Origin: an uncultured Candidatus Saccharibacteria bacterium
Lineage (GTDB): Bacteria > Patescibacteriota > Saccharimonadia > Saccharimonadales > Saccharimonadaceae
DNA: 64,000 nt
NCBI GenBank assembly: GCA_947087275.1
Contig: CAMUBZ010000002.1
Span: 1 to 64,000 of the forward strand
Direction: 5' to 3'
The notes below the pieces were generated by a model that had not been told where the DNA came from, searched no databases, and saw nothing but the letters and a program-made list of their open reading frames with translations. Numbering within the stretch: the first letter of the stretch is position 1; each line of letters begins with the position of its first letter. Positions 13,944-60,993 of the stretch are shown in pieces. The translations under genes were made by a program, and so were the position numbers.

Positions 13944-14042
13944 TAGTTTGCTATCGAGTGACGCGTCGCCATAGCCCGTCGTTACGGGTATGGCGCGCTG
14001 CATGCTCGCCCGTAGGCTGCGCACCCACTCTTTAGCAAACTA
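13944..14042. repeat. Nested palindromic element, copy E2
   Basis: The arms TAGTTTGCTATCGAGTG (13944-13960) and CACTCTTTAGCAAACTA (14026-14042) form an inverted repeat with two mismatches. They enclose a 65-bp core (13961-14025) identical to the core at 17910-17974. The core folds into CCATA/TATGG capped by CCCGT-CGTT-ACGGG, followed by a second small hairpin (GCC/GGC). It lies between the LexA-type gene and the promoter of the membrane-protein gene. Confidence 0.85.
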
Positions 14043-14063: not shown

Positions 14064-14387
14064 TTACAAATCCAAGTTTAGAATTTTGGCGGCTTCATAG
14101 AGAGTGGCTCGTTCCTCTGGAGTTGCCGTAATTATGGCCTGGTGGAAAAGTGCCACAGTTTCGGGATGGGTGAAGTCGATGACTTCAAGTGAACGAGCAG
14201 CACCGGGGATCTTTTTGAGGGCACCCTTGGCACAAAGGTTGTCGATGTGCTCGGCTACCGCCGAAACTGAGGATAAGCCGAGGGCAGTCATGATTTCACG
14301 GTACGTGGGCGAGACGCCACGCGTAGTCGTAAAATCATTGATAAAGTCAATAATAAGCGCTTGTTTTTTAGTCAATTTAATCGTCAT
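14064..14387 (-). CDS. LexA-type winged-helix DNA-binding protein lacking the peptidase domain
   Basis: Residues 1-70 match the LexA N-terminal DNA-binding domain: LTKKQALIIDFINDFTTTRG, then SPTYREIMTALGLSSVSAVA and GALKKIPGAARSLEVID. A true LexA is about 200 residues, with a Ser/Lys autopeptidase and dimerisation domain; here the protein ends at 107 residues with a short helical tail (ETVALFHQAIITATPEERAT). It therefore cannot self-cleave as LexA does. It may be an uncleavable regulator or one cleared in another way. Its target is unknown. The gene is divergent from the LCP gene with 51 bp between the starts, so it could regulate that gene. Confidence 0.75.
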   Translation of the reverse strand: MTIKLTKKQALIIDFINDFTTTRGVSPTYREIMTALGLSSVSAVAEHIDNLCAKGALKKIPGAARSLEVIDFTHPETVALFHQAIITATPEERATLYEAAKILNLDL

Positions 14388-14438: not shown

Positions 14439-16217
14439 ATGAGTAGAACGAGTATTGATGGATTAACTGTGCGCTCAACAAGCCCACGGCGGGTTCAGCC
14501 GGCGGCGAGCACGTCGGGTCGGGTAGTAGGTGATATTGTGACGCCTGCTCGCCGCCGGCCAGTGGCGCCGCGCGCAGAAAATTCTCGAGACTATACTGCT
14601 TTAAGCGCGGCGCCACAATCAGGCCCCGCCGACGCTTGGGATGATTTTGACCTTAACTCTCAAGATAATTCCTTGGGCGCCGTAGATGAGGCCGCCTGGT
14701 CGGAACTCTTGGATGGCTTTGGTGATAGTAAAGATAAACCCTCCGATTTGGGCTTGGAGCGCAAGGCGGCCGTGGAAGATGATTCCGCGCGGCGGGGCCG
14801 GGCAAAATCTAGCGCTGATGAGACCGAATCTAAGCCAAGTCGACGCGAGCGTAGACAACAAAAATCTCAATTACCCAAAAAACATCACTTCAAAATTAAG
14901 CATCCAATTTTGATGACAATTTTTATTGTGTTAGTAGCATTAGGAGTGACTGGGTTTGTCTGGGGGGATAGTTTGATTTCTCGTCTAACGAACGGACAAT
15001 CAGGCCTATTTAGTGCAATTGGAGCGATGATTTCTAACGAGATTCCATTTGAGACTGATGAGCATGGACGCACTAATGTATTGGTGTTTGGGACCGAAGG
15101 GTATAATATGAGCGGCGCCATGGATTACGTGGATCGCGATGATGCTGACGGTGTGCATGATGGCGCAAATTTGACCGATTCTATTATGGTAGTCAGTTTT
15201 GACCAAGAGACTCAGGATGTCGCGATGATTAGTATCCCACGAGATTTGAAAGTCTCGATGGCATGCTCGGCAGGCAAAATTAACGAGGTGTACTGGTGCC
15301 ATAACCAAAATGGCGATAATGAAGAGGCTGGAGCCTTAGCCCTCGCACAGCAACTAAGTGAGGTCTTGGGAATTGAGTTTCAATATTGGGCACATGTAAA
15401 CTGGGGTGCATTGGCTGATATTATCGACACGATTGGCGGAATAACCGTTACTCTCAATGAAGATATTAATGATAAATATTATACTGGTACCGTAATTCAG
15501 GCCGGAGTGCCGACACGTTTGTCAGGGTTACAGGCAGTGGCGCTGGCACGAGCACGCCACGGCACAATGGGGGGAGATTTTACCCGTGGGAACTCACAGC
15601 AAAAGATTATGGAAGGAATCGTCAACGAGCTGACTACTAATGGTATCAATATTCCGGAGGCGTTTGGTCTAATAAATATCTTGGGCGATAATTTCCGTTC
15701 CAACTTCTCAACCGACAACATCAAGGCAGGAGTCAAACTCGCCTCGGCGTTTAACCCGGCATCAATGCGTAATATTCTACTCGTAGATTATATTAATAAT
15801 GTTTATTATATGACAACAGCGATGATTAACGGGATTTCTTATGTAGTACCACAAGCGGGAGCAGGCAATTATACCGCTATACACCAATATATGGACCAAA
15901 TTTTGAGTAGTAATCCAGCCGTGCGCGAGGGGGCACAGATTGCTATATATAATGCGACGGAGACTGTAGGTGTAGCAAGTGCCGAACAGGCCAACCTTGA
16001 GGCGGATGGTTACGTAGTGAGCGGCATTGGTGATAGCGCCAGCGAAAATTGTACAGATAAATATTGCGTATATGCGTTAACGGATGATATGCCAGCCACG
16101 AAGGCGGCTTTGGCGGAACGGTATGGCGTGGAGGTGCGAGCGGCGGCAGAGTTACCAGGCGATGTTTATCCTGGTCCAGCAAATTTCGTAGTCTTGGTGG
16201 GCCAAGCCGAAGAGTAA
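14439..16217 (+). CDS. LytR-CpsA-Psr (LCP) family cell-wall glycopolymer ligase
   Basis: This membrane-anchored phosphotransferase attaches lipid-linked glycopolymers to peptidoglycan or another surface acceptor. A disordered charged N-terminus of about 140 residues is followed by one membrane span (PILMTIFIVLVALGVTGFVW). The LCP domain at about 205-420 contains TNVLVFGTEGY, LTDSIMVVSFDQETQDVAMI, SIPRDLKV, and the later ARARHGTMGGDFTRGNSQQK with the arginines that bind the pyrophosphate. A LytR_C-type domain lies near 490-592 (IAIYNATETVGVASAEQANL). The ATG at 14439 follows an AGGGG ribosome-binding site. It logically completes the glycan export pathway encoded in the first 10 kb. The unusually long N-terminus is the main oddity. 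Confidence 0.9.
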   Translation: MSRTSIDGLTVRSTSPRRVQPAASTSGRVVGDIVTPARRRPVAPRAENSRDYTALSAAPQSGPADAWDDFDLNSQDNSLGAVDEAAWSELLDGFGDSKDKPSDLGLERKAAVEDDSARRGRAKSSADETESKPSRRERRQQKSQLPKKHHFKIKHPILMTIFIVLVALGVTGFVWGDSLISRLTNGQSGLFSAIGAMISNEIPFETDEHGRTNVLVFGTEGYNMSGAMDYVDRDDADGVHDGANLTDSIMVVSFDQETQDVAMISIPRDLKVSMACSAGKINEVYWCHNQNGDNEEAGALALAQQLSEVLGIEFQYWAHVNWGALADIIDTIGGITVTLNEDINDKYYTGTVIQAGVPTRLSGLQAVALARARHGTMGGDFTRGNSQQKIMEGIVNELTTNGINIPEAFGLINILGDNFRSNFSTDNIKAGVKLASAFNPASMRNILLVDYINNVYYMTTAMINGISYVVPQAGAGNYTAIHQYMDQILSSNPAVREGAQIAIYNATETVGVASAEQANLEADGYVVSGIGDSASENCTDKYCVYALTDDMPATKAALAERYGVEVRAAAELPGDVYPGPANFVVLVGQAEE

Positions 16218-16233
16218 TAATGGCATGGTAAAA

Positions 16234-16266
16234 ATTTGAACTAGTACAGCCTGTACTAGTTCAAAT
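16234..16266. repeat. 33-bp perfect palindrome, GAACTAGTACAG type
   Basis: ATTTGAACTAGTACAG, a central C and its exact reverse complement form a perfect inverted repeat between two convergent genes. The inner 25 bp (16238-16262) belong to the same family as 41714-41738 and 52598-52622, which sit at cassette 5' ends. It could stop transcription from both sides, but it lacks a strong T-run. Confidence 0.75.
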
Positions 16267-16302
16267 GTAATTCTTCCCTGTTATTTGATCAAGCAAAATG
16301 GT

Positions 16303-16773
16303 TTATTCGCCAGAAATATCGATTTTCTCGATAATAAGTTGGCGTTCGCGGCCTTCACCCTCAGAATGGGTGCTAATATCAGAGTAATCTTGAGCAACTT
16401 TATGCACAACACGGCGATCGGCAGCATTGAGGTTGCAACGACGAGGGTGACCGGTTTGGCGAACTTCACGAATCCACTCTTCAGCCTGCTCGGCGATACG
16501 TTCAGCACGTTGGCGCTTGTAATCAGCAACATCAACATTCACACGAGTGAGTTCAGCTTCGCGGCTAGTGAGGGCCATAGATACGATATGTTGCAGAGCG
16601 CGGAGGTTATTAGCCTCACGACCAATCAGCAAAGAATTCATGCTAGTGGACGGAATCGCTAACTGGATTACCTCATCGTCAACTGTAGAATCAACAGCGA
16701 CGTTAATCCCGAAGAAAGACAATAAGTCTTCGAGGTATTTGGTGGCAAAACGAATTGATTCATCTTTGTTCAT
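16303..16773 (-). CDS. khpB: KhpB/Jag-type KH-R3H RNA-binding protein
   Basis: The KH-like domain at about 50-80 includes NSLLIGREANNLRALQHIVS, a variant of the canonical GKHGKTLDALQYL segment. The R3H domain at about 115-145 reads NAADRRVVHKVAQDYSDIST with the following HSEGEGRERQL. It lies 9 nt after yidC, the usual yidC-jag arrangement near the origin. The N-terminal Jag domain of the longer Firmicutes proteins is largely absent (156 residues in total). It is expected to bind RNAs that influence cell-envelope growth and division. Confidence 0.9.
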   Translation of the reverse strand: MNKDESIRFATKYLEDLLSFFGINVAVDSTVDDEVIQLAIPSTSMNSLLIGREANNLRALQHIVSMALTSREAELTRVNVDVADYKRQRAERIAEQAEEWIREVRQTGHPRRCNLNAADRRVVHKVAQDYSDISTHSEGEGRERQLIIEKIDISGE

Positions 16774-17892: not shown

Positions 17893-17991
17893 CAAAGTAC
17901 CATCAAGGTACGCGTCGCCATAGCCCGTCGTTACGGGTATGGCGCGCTGCATGCTCGCCCGTAGGCTGCGCACCACTTTGATAGTACTTTG
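17893..17991. repeat. Nested palindromic element, copy E3
   Basis: Its 65-bp core (17910-17974) is identical to that of copy E2 (13961-14025). The arms CAAAGTACCATCAAGGT (17893-17909) and ACTTTGATAGTACTTTG (17975-17991) are an imperfect inverted repeat unrelated in sequence to the arms of the other copies. It sits between the acyltransferase stop and the yidC promoter. Confidence 0.85.
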
Positions 17992-19982: not shown

Positions 19983-21359
19983 ATGTTTGACGTGTGGAAG
20001 AGTGTCTTGGCTGAAGTTGAACAGTCGATTCCTCATGAGCAATACTCGACTTGGTTTACTGGCACCGAATTGGTAGGTATAGATAACAATGTCGTAACAA
20101 TTGGGGTGCCGAATGTTTTTAAAATCAAACAACTAGAGAAAAAATATTTTGGGATTTTGCGTGACGCATTTCTACATAATAAAGTTGATGTAAGAGAAAT
20201 TAAATATGTCGTACAGAGTAATGTAAAACCCAAAGTGCGAGCGCGAGAAATTCCGGTAGCGCCTAGTTCCCCATCTGCGCCGCTACAAGTAGCACGAAGT
20301 GTGGATAGTGAGAGAGTAGTCAATATGGGTAAATCCTTCCAAACAGGGTTGAATCCAAAATACACTTTGGCAAACTTCGTGATTGGATCCAATAACGACT
20401 TAGCCGTGAGTGTGGCACGGAATATTATTGACCAACCAGGTGGGAGTTATAACCCGTTTTTCCTTTATGGTGGGCCTGGTCTTGGTAAAACTCATTTAGT
20501 GCAAGCAATCGGTAATGAACTTTTGGCGAGAGATCCCAAGCTGAAAGTCTTATATACTCCAGTATCAAGTTTCTATTCGGATTTTATTAAATCTTTGCAA
20601 AACAAGAAGAGCGATGAGTTTCGGCAGAAATTCCGTAGACTTGATGTGTTGATTATAGATGATTTTCAGATGATTATGAATAAGGACGCATCGCAAGTTG
20701 AGTTTTTTGATATTTTCAATGAATTATATAATTTAAGCAAACAAGTAATTGTAACATCCGACCGCTTACCCAATCAAATTAAATCAGTGGATGAACGTTT
20801 AGCATCAAGGTTAACTTGGGCGGGGGCGTATGATTTACAGTTACCGCAATTTGAGGATAAATGTGCAATTCTGCGGGCTAAAGCCGAGTTTACGGGTGTA
20901 GAGGTGGAAGACGAAGCGATTGAATACTTGGCTGAGAATGTGAAGACCAATATTCGTGACCTGGAGGGTGAATTTAATCACCTGCTGGCAGTAGCAGAAC
21001 TCAAGAATATGTCACCGCTAGAGGTGATTAGTGAAGGCTATGTTAATACGGCACGCAATCCTCAGGCAAAAACTTTGTCACCTAAACAAGTCATTGAAAA
21101 AGTAGCCAAGTATTACAATATGACGCCAAAAGAAATGTGCAGTAAAAGTCGAGTGGCGCATATCAAGAATGCGCGCCAAGTAGCAATGTATATGCTGTCA
21201 AAAGAACTTAGTATGAGTACGCCAAAAATCGCGATGGAGGTAGGAGTCAAAGATCACACTACCGTGATGCACGGAATAAAAAAGATCGAAGCCGATTTGA
21301 AACTAAATTTTAGCCTCCGTGACCAGATTGCCGCGCTCAGGGAGAAGATTTATGGATAG
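19983..21359 (+). CDS. dnaA: Chromosomal replication initiator DnaA
   Basis: This AAA+ ATPase binds DnaA boxes and opens the origin. The N-terminal domain I (MFDVWKSVLAEVEQSIPHEQ) is followed by a short linker. AAA+ motifs are Walker A GGPGLGKTHLV near residue 165, Walker B VLIIDDFQMI near 225, and the sensor regions. The C-terminal DNA-binding helix-turn-helix contains the DnaA signature DHTTVMHGIKKIEADL. At 458 residues the length is normal. In the sensor-1/arginine-finger area the sequence reads VDERLASRLTWAGAYDLQLP, close to the usual SRFEWGL. It is the first gene of dnaA-dnaN-recF. Confidence 0.98.
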   Translation: MFDVWKSVLAEVEQSIPHEQYSTWFTGTELVGIDNNVVTIGVPNVFKIKQLEKKYFGILRDAFLHNKVDVREIKYVVQSNVKPKVRAREIPVAPSSPSAPLQVARSVDSERVVNMGKSFQTGLNPKYTLANFVIGSNNDLAVSVARNIIDQPGGSYNPFFLYGGPGLGKTHLVQAIGNELLARDPKLKVLYTPVSSFYSDFIKSLQNKKSDEFRQKFRRLDVLIIDDFQMIMNKDASQVEFFDIFNELYNLSKQVIVTSDRLPNQIKSVDERLASRLTWAGAYDLQLPQFEDKCAILRAKAEFTGVEVEDEAIEYLAENVKTNIRDLEGEFNHLLAVAELKNMSPLEVISEGYVNTARNPQAKTLSPKQVIEKVAKYYNMTPKEMCSKSRVAHIKNARQVAMYMLSKELSMSTPKIAMEVGVKDHTTVMHGIKKIEADLKLNFSLRDQIAALREKIYG

Positions 21360-41661: not shown

Positions 41662-41713
41662 GTTGGGCTTATCGACAGAATTTTTGATGGAATTATAGAG
41701 GTGAATGTGGTTT

Positions 41714-41738
41714 GAACTAGTAACGGCGTTACTAGTTC
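41714..41738. repeat. 25-bp palindrome at the 5' flank of cassette 1
   Basis: GAACTAGTAACG, a central G and CGTTACTAGTTC form a perfect inverted repeat. It sits 12 bp before the cassette boundary GTGCGCAGCGG and is preceded by GTGAATGTGGTTT, the same flank as at 52585. Confidence 0.8.
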
Positions 41739-41749
41739 AGTTTACTTCC

Positions 41750-41953
41750 GTGCGCAGCGGGTATACTCATGTTAACAATGGTAAGATATGGGATGCTAGC
41801 AAGAACGGTAGCTGGTGGGTATCGCGGGCATCTACTTCAGCTACGGCGTATTATCTACAAATCGAACCAACATCGACTATGTCATCTCATAACCCAGGTA
41901 ACCGTTACTACGCTTTCCCCTTCCGCTGCCTTAGTACTGTATTAGGTATGTAG
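41750..41953 (+). pseudogene. Silent FISUMP-type C-terminal cassette, copy 1
   Basis: From GTGCGCAGCGG (V-R-S-G) to TAG there are 68 codons without a stop: VRSGYTHVNNGKIWDASKNG, then WWVSRASTSATAYYLQIEPT and RYYAFPFRCLSTVLGM. The ends match the other cassettes at DNA level, while the middle is unique. An ATG at 41705 is in frame but its codons run through the palindrome, and no ribosome-binding site or promoter is convincing. FISUMP domains normally end in a comparable W-S-S-R ... FPVRC pattern and belong to long exported proteins. Confidence 0.75.
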
Positions 41954-41980: not shown

Positions 41981-42844
41981 ATGGTAAGTAAAGATGAGAT
42001 TTTTCCAATCGCAATTGGAACGTGGAAAATTGACCCAGATAATTTTGATAATGACCTTCGCGCATTACTTCATTCTTACGAGAGAGGGCAGAATTATTTA
42101 TCATTGTATATGATGTATAACAATGGTGGCGTCGTGAAACAGATGCGCCAATTTGTTAAATGTGTTAATCGGGATAAACTTTTCATCAATACTAATCTTG
42201 AGCCAACTATAGCAAGGCCTGGTGATGTTGAGGTGCAACTAGATGAATATTTGAAGATTCTGGGGCTAGATTATGTTGATAGTTTGCAATTGCATAGTCC
42301 GTGGTTCTCAAATTTGCCATTAGAAGATGTGTATGGAGAAATTCAGCAACTAGTTGATGTTGGTAAGGTGAGATATGTTGGTGTGAGCAATGCAAACCTT
42401 GAACAGCTGGCTAGAATTGAGCGCGTGGCCAAGATTGATTTCTTTGAGGGCGTTTATAATTTGGAATGCAAACTTTATGAGGATATGGGTGCTATAGAAT
42501 ATTGTGCTCATAGTGATAAATTGTTCATGGCTTATCAACCACTGAGACGTAATAGGACGGCAATGCGTAATTATCCTGTGTTGGCCGATTTAGCAAATAA
42601 ATATCAGAAAACACAAAATCAAATTTTGCTTAATTGGATTGTAATGGAGAAGCGGTTACTAACGTTGGTTAAGAGTACGAATATCGAACGAATAGATGAG
42701 AATATTGGGTCCTTGAGCTTCAAAATGGATATGGGGGACTATGATAAATTAAATAAGTTTAGAAGTGAAGAATTTGACAATGTTGCGGTGAACTGGGATG
42801 GTACTGGTGTAACAATTGACCAATTAGCGAATCAATTTGAATGA
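41981..42844 (+). CDS. Aldo/keto reductase family protein
   Basis: This is an NAD(P)H-dependent oxidoreductase with a TIM-barrel fold. The family order is visible: IGTWKIDPDNFDNDLRALLH, then LDEYLKILGLDYVDSLQLHS, the strand GEIQQLVDVGKVRYVGVSNA, the cofactor region KTQNQILLNWIVMEKRLLTL, and VKSTNIERIDENIGSL. At 287 residues it is normal. The catalytic Tyr of the usual D-Y-K-H tetrad is not clearly placed (YLSLYMMYNNGG lies where it would be), so activity is uncertain. It sits between a cassette and tRNA-Ser, so it may be an acquired gene. The start is fixed by a -10 box 9 nt upstream. Confidence 0.82.
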   Translation: MVSKDEIFPIAIGTWKIDPDNFDNDLRALLHSYERGQNYLSLYMMYNNGGVVKQMRQFVKCVNRDKLFINTNLEPTIARPGDVEVQLDEYLKILGLDYVDSLQLHSPWFSNLPLEDVYGEIQQLVDVGKVRYVGVSNANLEQLARIERVAKIDFFEGVYNLECKLYEDMGAIEYCAHSDKLFMAYQPLRRNRTAMRNYPVLADLANKYQKTQNQILLNWIVMEKRLLTLVKSTNIERIDENIGSLSFKMDMGDYDKLNKFRSEEFDNVAVNWDGTGVTIDQLANQFE

Positions 42845-52542: not shown

Positions 52543-52597
52543 GATTCTTGGTTTATCGACCAAAAATTTGATTAAATTATAGGGGTGAATGTGGTTT

Positions 52598-52622
52598 GAA
52601 CTTGTACAGCCTGTACAAGTTC
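52598..52622. repeat. 25-bp palindrome at the 5' flank of cassette 3
   Basis: GAACTTGTACAG, a central C and CTGTACAAGTTC form a perfect inverted repeat. Relative to 16238-16262 the A/T at position 6 is changed on both arms, a paired substitution. Confidence 0.8.
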
Positions 52623-52634
52623 GTTCACTCTTCT

Positions 52635-52844
52635 GTGCGCAGCGGTGATATTTATTTACCTAGCGACGATGGAACTTTTCGGCTTGCCGGACAGCGTGGT
52701 TATAAATGGTTATCGCGTTCAGCAACATCAACCACAGACGCATACTTCTTCGTCTTTAACCCTCACGATGTTTATCCACTATATAGTAATGGTCGTTATA
52801 ACGCTTTCCCCCTCCGCTGCCTTAGTACTGTATTAGATATGTAA
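52635..52844 (+). pseudogene. Silent FISUMP-type C-terminal cassette, copy 3
   Basis: It has 70 open codons: VRSGDIYLPSDDGTFRLAGQ, RGYKWLSRSATSTTDAYFFV, and FNPHDVYPLYSNGRYNAFPL then RCLSTVLDM. The G-Y-x-W-x-S-R centre and the V-Y-P ... R-Y-x-A-F-P pattern are typical of FISUMP C-termini. About 50 bp of upstream DNA (TTATCGAC ... GTGAATGTGGTTTGAACT) is shared with copy 1. Confidence 0.78.
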
Positions 52845-59624: not shown

Positions 59625-59716
59625 TACTATTTATGTCATTTTTGGTATTTTGGCAATAATGTTTGGTAATTTGGTAGTTCCCTGTCGGGGTTCTTGTTTT
59701 TGCTTTCCTTGCTTTC

Positions 59717-59944
59717 CTACATACCTAATACAGTACTAAGGCAGCGGAGGGGGTAACCGACACTGCGTTCATACGGTCCACGTGATGGTTCTACAATAAT
59801 TCCGAATGCCAAATAATATCCACTTAGGATAGCCTCATTGGCTGCATTTTTATTTGAGCCTCGTGACGACCAATTATAGCCATTCTGTCCAGACCATCTA
59901 AAATTAGTCGTAGTATTCATAAGAGTAATTCCCCCGCTGCGCAC
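59717..59944 (-). pseudogene. Silent FISUMP-type C-terminal cassette, copy 4
   Basis: It has 76 open codons on the minus strand: VRSGGITLMNTTTNFRWSGQ, NGYNWSSRGSNKNAANEAIL, then YYLAFGIIVEPSRGPYERSV and GYPLRCLSTVLGM. F of FPLRC is Y here. The boundaries match the other copies. It is head-to-head with copy 5, only 15 bp apart, so CCGCTGCGCAC and GTGCGCAGCGG face each other as an inverted repeat. Confidence 0.78.
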
Positions 59945-59959
59945 ACTCTTAAGACTTTC

Positions 59960-60166
59960 GTGCGCAGCGGTGATATAGAATTATCTAATGCCGATAGCAC
60001 TTTCCGGTTTGCTAGTCTCCGTGGCTGGTATTGGTCATTACGTGGCTCTTCTAATACTACACTTGCACACAGCTGCGACTTCACTACCAGTGTTAGTCCA
60101 TCACGTGCCGACGTTCGCTATGACGCTTTCCCCCTCCGCTGCCTTAGTACTGTATTAAGTATGTAG
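59960..60166 (+). pseudogene. Silent FISUMP-type C-terminal cassette, copy 5
   Basis: It has 69 open codons: VRSGDIELSNADSTFRFASL, RGWYWSLRGSSNTTLAHSCD, FTTSVSPSRADVRYDAFPLR, then CLSTVLSM. The 3' end reads AAGT instead of AGGT before ATG-TAG. There is no promoter or ribosome-binding site in the 15 bp separating it from copy 4. Confidence 0.78.
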
Positions 60167-60649: not shown

Positions 60650-60713
60650 AGCAACTTTAAACTATAAGTTATATTTTAAGTCAGGTAATAGATGTATTAT
60701 CCACTTCCATCTC

Positions 60714-60944
60714 CTACATACCTAATACAGTACTAAGGCAGCGGAGGGGGAAAGCGTAGTAACGGTTATCCCATCCATACATTAGATTCACACTAGTAGC
60801 GTTGAAACCTAGGCTATAAACGCTAGCATTGCCAGAACTACCAGCAACAGTCGCTGCACTACGTGATGACCAGTCATAACTCCATTGACCCGTACGCGTC
60901 AATGTTCCTGTTGTAAGGGGTGGATAAATTACTCCGCTGCGCAC
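60714..60944 (-). pseudogene. Silent FISUMP-type C-terminal cassette, copy 6
   Basis: It has 77 open codons on the minus strand: VRSGVIYPPLTTGTLTRTGQ, WSYDWSSRSAATVAGSSGNA, SVYSLGFNATSVNLMYGWDN, then RYYAFPLRCLSTVLGM. The boundaries match the other copies. No start signals are present upstream (60945-60985). Confidence 0.78.
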
Positions 60945-60993
60945 GAGAAATTGGTAAGGTAATATTCTGAAGTCAACCTATTGTTTAGAACGT

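Follow-up and report, generated by a model that had tools for sequence, protein, structure and literature searches.

A composite element of a conserved core and a covarying stem-loop beside FISUMP-type cassettes in one Saccharibacteria clade: a possible recombination border

The three 25-bp palindromes of the analysed DNA are each the stem-loop half of a larger composite element of roughly 80 bp, in which an outer box, the core TWACAGRGRTRAA, a fixed gap of about 8–10 nt and the stem-loop follow one another. The best reading of this element, which we hold with somewhat less than even confidence, is that it may be a structure-dependent recombination or attachment border for the exchange of promoterless protein-coding cassettes. 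The combination of stem-loop covariation, conserved positions and near-fixed cassette junctions is unusual.

The window, that is, the whole stretch of 64,000 nucleotides analysed, corresponds to positions 1–64000 of contig C2 in its host Saccharibacteria genome (G000, 829 kb in 15 contigs), and was compared with a sister species of about 80% DNA identity (G130) and with further genomes, all of which are metagenome assemblies whose contigs break at cassettes. The palindromes were recovered exactly at the coordinates 16238–16262, 41714–41738 and 52598–52622 given in the preliminary description, while shuffled sequences are expected to contain 0.05 such sites even when three mismatches are allowed. 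The parts of the three composite elements in the window are as follows.

52598–52622, no strand: stem-loop GAACTTGTACAGCCTGTACAAGTTC, with 12-bp arms and the 3-nt loop GCC; predicted DNA fold z −4.4; family covariation
52577–52589, plus strand: core TTATAGGGGTGAA, at a fixed distance before the 52598 stem, from the displaced-control test
52548–52563, plus strand: outer box TTGGTTTATCGACCAA, the other end of the composite element, from alignments; a small hairpin fold is possible in this copy
41714–41738, no strand: stem-loop GAACTAGTAACGGCGTTACTAGTTC, from the palindrome scan and fold prediction
41693–41705, plus strand: core TTATAGAGGTGAA of the 41714 element
41666–41678, plus strand: outer box GGCTTATCGACAG of the 41714 element
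16238–16262, no strand: stem-loop GAACTAGTACAGCCTGTACTAGTTC, without a cassette
16271–16283, minus strand: core TAACAGGGAAGAA of the 16238 element
16300–16311, minus strand: outer box GGCGAATAAACC of the 16238 element

The core, a quasi-palindromic consensus, was found at a fixed offset in every copy examined, with all 63 of 63 copies scoring at least 9/12. At the stricter score of at least 11/12, it was detected at the fixed offset in 43 of 58 loci, compared with 2 of 348 displaced controls. In 45 copies the core is oriented toward the stem, whereas 18 have it mirrored, and a third, TTTAYTRAC-like box lies further out in many copies. Three other stem families of the G000 genome, ACCTTATCG, ATACTGGTACA and AAACTGAATAA, share the same core.

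The family statistics rest on 64 distinct copies (loci), which share descent. Complementary bases face each other at distances 2, 3 and 7 from the centre in 50, 58 and 63 of the 64 copies, against permutation means of 22, 28 and 38.5, with p values of about 0.0002 that are too small because the loci are related by descent. The innermost pair (distance 1) is paired in 34 of 64 copies versus 31.6 by permutation, thus exhibiting no covariation. This points to a stem-loop whose loop has 3 nt, in which the innermost pair would be unable to form, rather than to a double-stranded operator, as the independent half-sites of a dimer would not covary; single-strand fold predictions agree with this. The orthologous stems of G000 and G130 also differ by paired changes at several sites; in tlyA, for example, an A to T change in one arm is matched by T to A in the other. 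The earlier suggestion of selection on the palindrome itself finds support in compensatory changes, seen both among the 64 copies and between orthologous sites of two species. Among the roles then proposed for it, that of a hairpin receives support, the covarying halves and five copies lying in reading frames speak against a plain operator, and a recombinase or transposase site is possible, a dedicated enzyme not having been found. Fixed arm positions could still be protein contacts, despite the covariation elsewhere, and the centre is imperfect in some copies, such as that at C2:77946.

The genome scan for GAACTWGTA-N7-TACWAGTTC, proposed as a check in the preliminary description, yielded 11 exact copies in G000 and three more with up to two mismatches. 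The exact 25-bp form occurs in 12 of 147 genomes of the genus. A search of 84,980 species for the longer 29-bp form, TTGAACTWGTA-N7-TACWAGTTCAA, gave 29 matches, every one of them in Candidatus Saccharibacteria, and 393 genomes from the order's 156 other genera contained none. The 29-bp form was found only in this genus in the searches made. Viral contigs contained no match to the palindrome or to the cassette 22-mer described below, and carriage of the element or the cassettes by phages was rejected. We came across no earlier description of it in open-access papers, a body of literature from which most subscription journals are missing.

The sequences that adjoin the element are cassettes, of which G000 carries 75. 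They are promoterless pieces of 60–100 residues that carry the motif (F)VRSG...WWSSRA...RYxAFPLRCLSTVLGM* and whose 3′ ends share an invariant 22-mer; they match the surface-protein family FISUMP (TIGR02145) in its C-terminal part, and they are dispersed over the whole genome, many of them in divergent pairs. Further cassettes with a different 3′ end were detected by profile. Full-length FISUMP-type proteins have a long N-terminal part of secreted type. The cassettes of the window are as follows.

52634–52844, plus strand: cassette, C-terminal FISUMP-like piece running from the CGTGCGCAGCGG-type border to the stop codon
52333–52543, minus strand: divergent partner cassette across the element from the 52634 cassette; the 3′ ends of the two form a 41-bp perfect inverted repeat
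41749–41953, plus strand: cassette, single in G000; two divergent cassettes at the orthologous G130 site
59715–59945, minus strand: cassette of a minimal divergent pair, with a 13-bp spacer and no palindrome
59959–60166, plus strand: partner cassette of this minimal pair
60712–60945, minus strand: further cassette, with a near-identical copy at C2:84727
1–86: cassette, member of the FISUMP C-terminal archive

Eight pairs of cassettes at different loci were found to be 94–98% identical, with unrelated flanks and with the match stopping 0–8 nt from the borders. For six of these pairs, the whole variable part is identical as far as at least the last 56 nt, any differences being confined to that final stretch. 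The cassette loci common to G000 and G130 differ in content. Because near-identical pairs end at the borders and shared loci differ in content, cassette content moves between fixed loci through recent copying with sharp edges, a candidate silent-archive pattern as read from the sequences. Such a pattern is comparable to that of vlsE in Borrelia and pilE/pilS in Neisseria (e.g., PMC11499132), where promoterless partial copies of one surface-protein region, conserved borders and exact copies between loci also occur, and where, as is probable here, one or a few expression genes are served. Unlike in the contiguous array of Borrelia, at least 75 cassettes are spread genome-wide here, many of them paired divergently about a hairpin element, and their carrier is an episymbiont of bacteria. 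The movement of content between loci matches silent-cassette gene conversion. The 75 partial copies have shared borders, and the candidate expression genes end at a contig edge with the variable part missing: the likely gene in G000 (C13:12570–14007, next to infB) runs off its contig just before the variable part, and its counterpart at the end of G130 C20 does the same. A 612-aa frame in G130 (C19) was rejected as an expressed gene, being a cassette that runs by chance into the neighbouring gene. Mutagenesis by a diversity-generating retroelement was likewise rejected, as exact copies occur, no adenine bias was observed, and most differences between near-identical cassettes fall either at the very 3′ terminus or within the conserved 3′ portion. 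Small CdiA_C-type ORFs lie between divergent cassettes at C2:83983–84525, C2:108847–109446 and C3:53346–53866 (PF18451 for the one tested); since they occur between some divergent cassettes only, they were rejected as a consistent partner.

The association of element and cassettes was also put forward earlier for testing: 31 of the 64 copies have the 5′ edge of a cassette no more than 120 bp away, which is true of 3.9% of points placed at random in these loci. In the window, the two palindromes described as just preceding cassettes do so, ending 10 bp (41714–41738) and 11 bp (52598–52622) before the borders at 41749 and 52634, and the latter palindrome is flanked by cassettes on both sides. 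Palindrome-cassette distances in G000 and G130 are almost all 5–11 or 53–59 bp, which puts the cassette edge at either end of the composite, while in other species they are mostly spread over 0–119 bp. The element adjoins cassettes on their 5′ side only. Four further copies are situated up to 60 bp from the 3′ end of long FISUMP genes (G040, G057 and G014), and 29 of the 64 are near neither the 5′ edge of a cassette nor the end of a FISUMP gene. Of the 65 bordered cassettes in G000, most lack this palindrome family; other stem families or spacers of 12–14 bp are found in its place, and many have neither. Cassette-profile candidates reach a median of 99 in palindrome-bearing genomes versus 18 in others, a difference uncorrected for phylogeny that could reflect ancestry because the palindrome-bearing genomes may be one clade. 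Directly after the 41749 cassette, an aldo/keto reductase gene (window 41981–42844) was observed that is missing at the orthologous G130 locus.

The border reading is the simplest account of why junctions are near-fixed, why occupancy changes and why the stem is conserved. The element is fixed in place in one clade of Saccharibacteria; under this reading, its strand would fold out, either as a cruciform or while single-stranded during replication or recombination, and the folded element might render the flanking DNA recombinogenic. A structure-dependent nuclease or strand-transfer protein may read the core, and both element ends would then be borders beside which promoterless C-terminal cassettes of a secreted FISUMP-type surface protein are captured and exchanged. 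That DNA rather than RNA folds, that a protein acts in trans, and that the element causes the exchange instead of being tolerated nearby are parts of the model that we infer. A wider proposal, possible but rather doubtful, is that a new structure-dependent DNA recombination site, made up of the core and a compensating stem-loop of several stem families, organises a genome-wide archive of about 75–100 exchangeable C-terminal cassettes of a host-contact surface protein in one Saccharibacteria clade. Little is understood of the ways in which tiny epibiotic bacteria recognise their host bacteria and keep pace with them; a large surface-protein archive with marked borders would allow fast change of host contact, and the hairpin-core element would be a first testable handle on cassette movement. 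In one Patescibacteria paper, such variation was only speculated on, and for other proteins (PMC11809585).

Several known systems share parts of this layout. Integron attC sites and Xer (dif) sites are alike in being folded DNA sites at cassette edges with a tyrosine recombinase present, but no IntI-type integrase was found in G000, the cassettes are dispersed rather than in a tandem array from one attI, Xer is universal in the genus, and the element lies 5′ of cassettes only. The single tyrosine recombinase of G000 is Xer-like, with a counterpart in all 24 genomes searched. Its gene lies between two palindromes (C2:109409 and 111482), and such genes are also present in palindrome-free genomes, so that a dedicated integrase was rejected. 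At oriT and HUH-endonuclease sites, a hairpin stands at a fixed distance from a conserved core, and stems vary while the core is shared. The present element differs from them in being chromosomal and multi-copy.

An alternative that we consider unlikely is a small non-autonomous palindromic mobile element, similar to RPE, REP or MITE repeats, which spread in the clade ancestor and tends toward cassette borders and tolerant protein loops. In its favour, one core is common to several stem families and copies lie in frame within genes; five copies of the core set lie inside reading frames, namely in tlyA (G000 and G049), in a wbaZ-like glycosyltransferase gene (G096 and G145) and in an ORF at C10:3967. 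None of the five has a cassette. The tlyA gene of G130 also carries a copy, while that of G013 has a short loop in place of the insert. The same tlyA and wbaZ-like protein loops bear unrelated in-frame hairpin inserts in other species, one recurrent kind having AAGACTTGGCCAGAGCGGCCCGGAGCG. The genomic positions speak otherwise, for nine of the 10 G130 palindromes examined are at positions orthologous to G000 copies and are kept paired by compensatory changes, unlike decaying insertions. The element is not freely mobile now. What changes at these shared sites is the cassette occupancy between G000 and G130 (none versus one at 16238, one versus two at 41714 and at 77946), and the 16238 element is inverted between the two. 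In the wbaZ-like gene, native codons (HLCYC) overlap with the core, so that core and stem did not arrive there as one unit. Direct repeats of TGTTCGG that other species have next to the wbaZ core were rejected, as they are not multi-copy sites in those species. The search for a transposase of the Y1 type (PF01797) gave no hit in G000, nor in 13 of 15 other genomes searched, and a repeat of the REP/IS200-IS605 type was rejected on the absence of Y1 (RAYT/TnpA) from G000. RPE and REP/MITE repeats are also short and palindromic, form several families and are both intergenic and in frame inside genes. The Rickettsia palindromic elements measure about 150 bp (review PMC10969869), whereas a 25–31 bp stem with a core at fixed spacing, orthologous sites, cassette borders and no Y1 transposase were found here. 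For the RPE trait of in-frame insertion into genes of several unrelated functions, the copies in tlyA, the wbaZ-like gene and one uncharacterised ORF are a candidate parallel; most copies are intergenic beside cassettes.

Compared with the border reading, a structured RNA seems improbable, with stem-loop and core working at the transcript level (in processing, in stability or as a small RNA) and cassettes merely accumulating alongside. The covariation would fit RNA equally well, and among the non-standard pairs G-T exceeds A-C (26 versus 10, oriented by the core), an asymmetry confounded by a conserved TTTG flank on one side. Against it, the element is sense in tlyA and antisense in the wbaZ-like gene and also occurs between convergent genes, and no Rfam family was matched within the window.

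A role as a chromosome-organisation site near the replication origin, either parS-like or a single-strand initiation site, is regarded as still less probable. It is suggested by nine of 14 copies lying on the 125-kb oriC contig, which makes up 15% of the genome (p about 4e-5), and by the five copies on one 94-kb contig of G408, with spacings of 10.6–20.4 kb; genes of the oriC contig also have an orthologue (at least 60% identity) at 17 of the 29 collection loci from other species. This clustering along the origin arm is inflated because the sites share ancestry. Moreover, the covariation argues against a double-stranded dimer site, the canonical parS TGTTTCACGTGAAACA has no match in the window at up to three mismatches, the element occurs in part of one genus only, and the near-fixed cassette junctions, which a recombination border would account for, are left unexplained. 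The dnaA gene is located at 19983–21359. A 73-bp repeat, 96% identical between window positions 13953–14025 and 17902–17974, was observed near the origin genes, and a direct repeat, TGTTCGGTTTGTTCGG, follows just after dnaA (C2:21427, dnaA-dnaN intergenic; G130 C1:114761), with similar repeats in wbaZ-like genes of other species.

An intrinsic terminator, or an operator bound by a helix-turn-helix protein (for example, the LexA-type one at 14064), is scarcely credible: the sites are palindromic, the 16238 copy does lie between convergent genes as first described (a LytR/CpsA/Psr type gene at 14439–16217, plus strand, and Jag/KhpB at 16303–16773, minus strand) and a few copies follow FISUMP stop codons in G040, G057 and G014, but the terminator reading fails because there is no consistent T-run in the flanks and copies lie within the tlyA and wbaZ-like reading frames, a terminator scan around 52598 does not list the stem, and the arms match each other rather than a fixed half-site sequence, which disfavours a dimer operator of the LexA or parS type. 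The LexA-type protein, earlier named as a candidate binder, had no specific link to the sites. The family is consequently not one of plain terminators lacking enrichment at cassettes, the outcome that would have spoken against the preliminary description. Hairpins of another repeat family were observed beside about 14 cassettes; these are perfect, have a 4-nt loop and begin a constant distance past the 3′ end of the cassette (e.g., C3:53168, minus strand; C9:20692, minus strand; C11:33349, plus strand), and are often followed by CGAATCGACG or CGAGACAACG.
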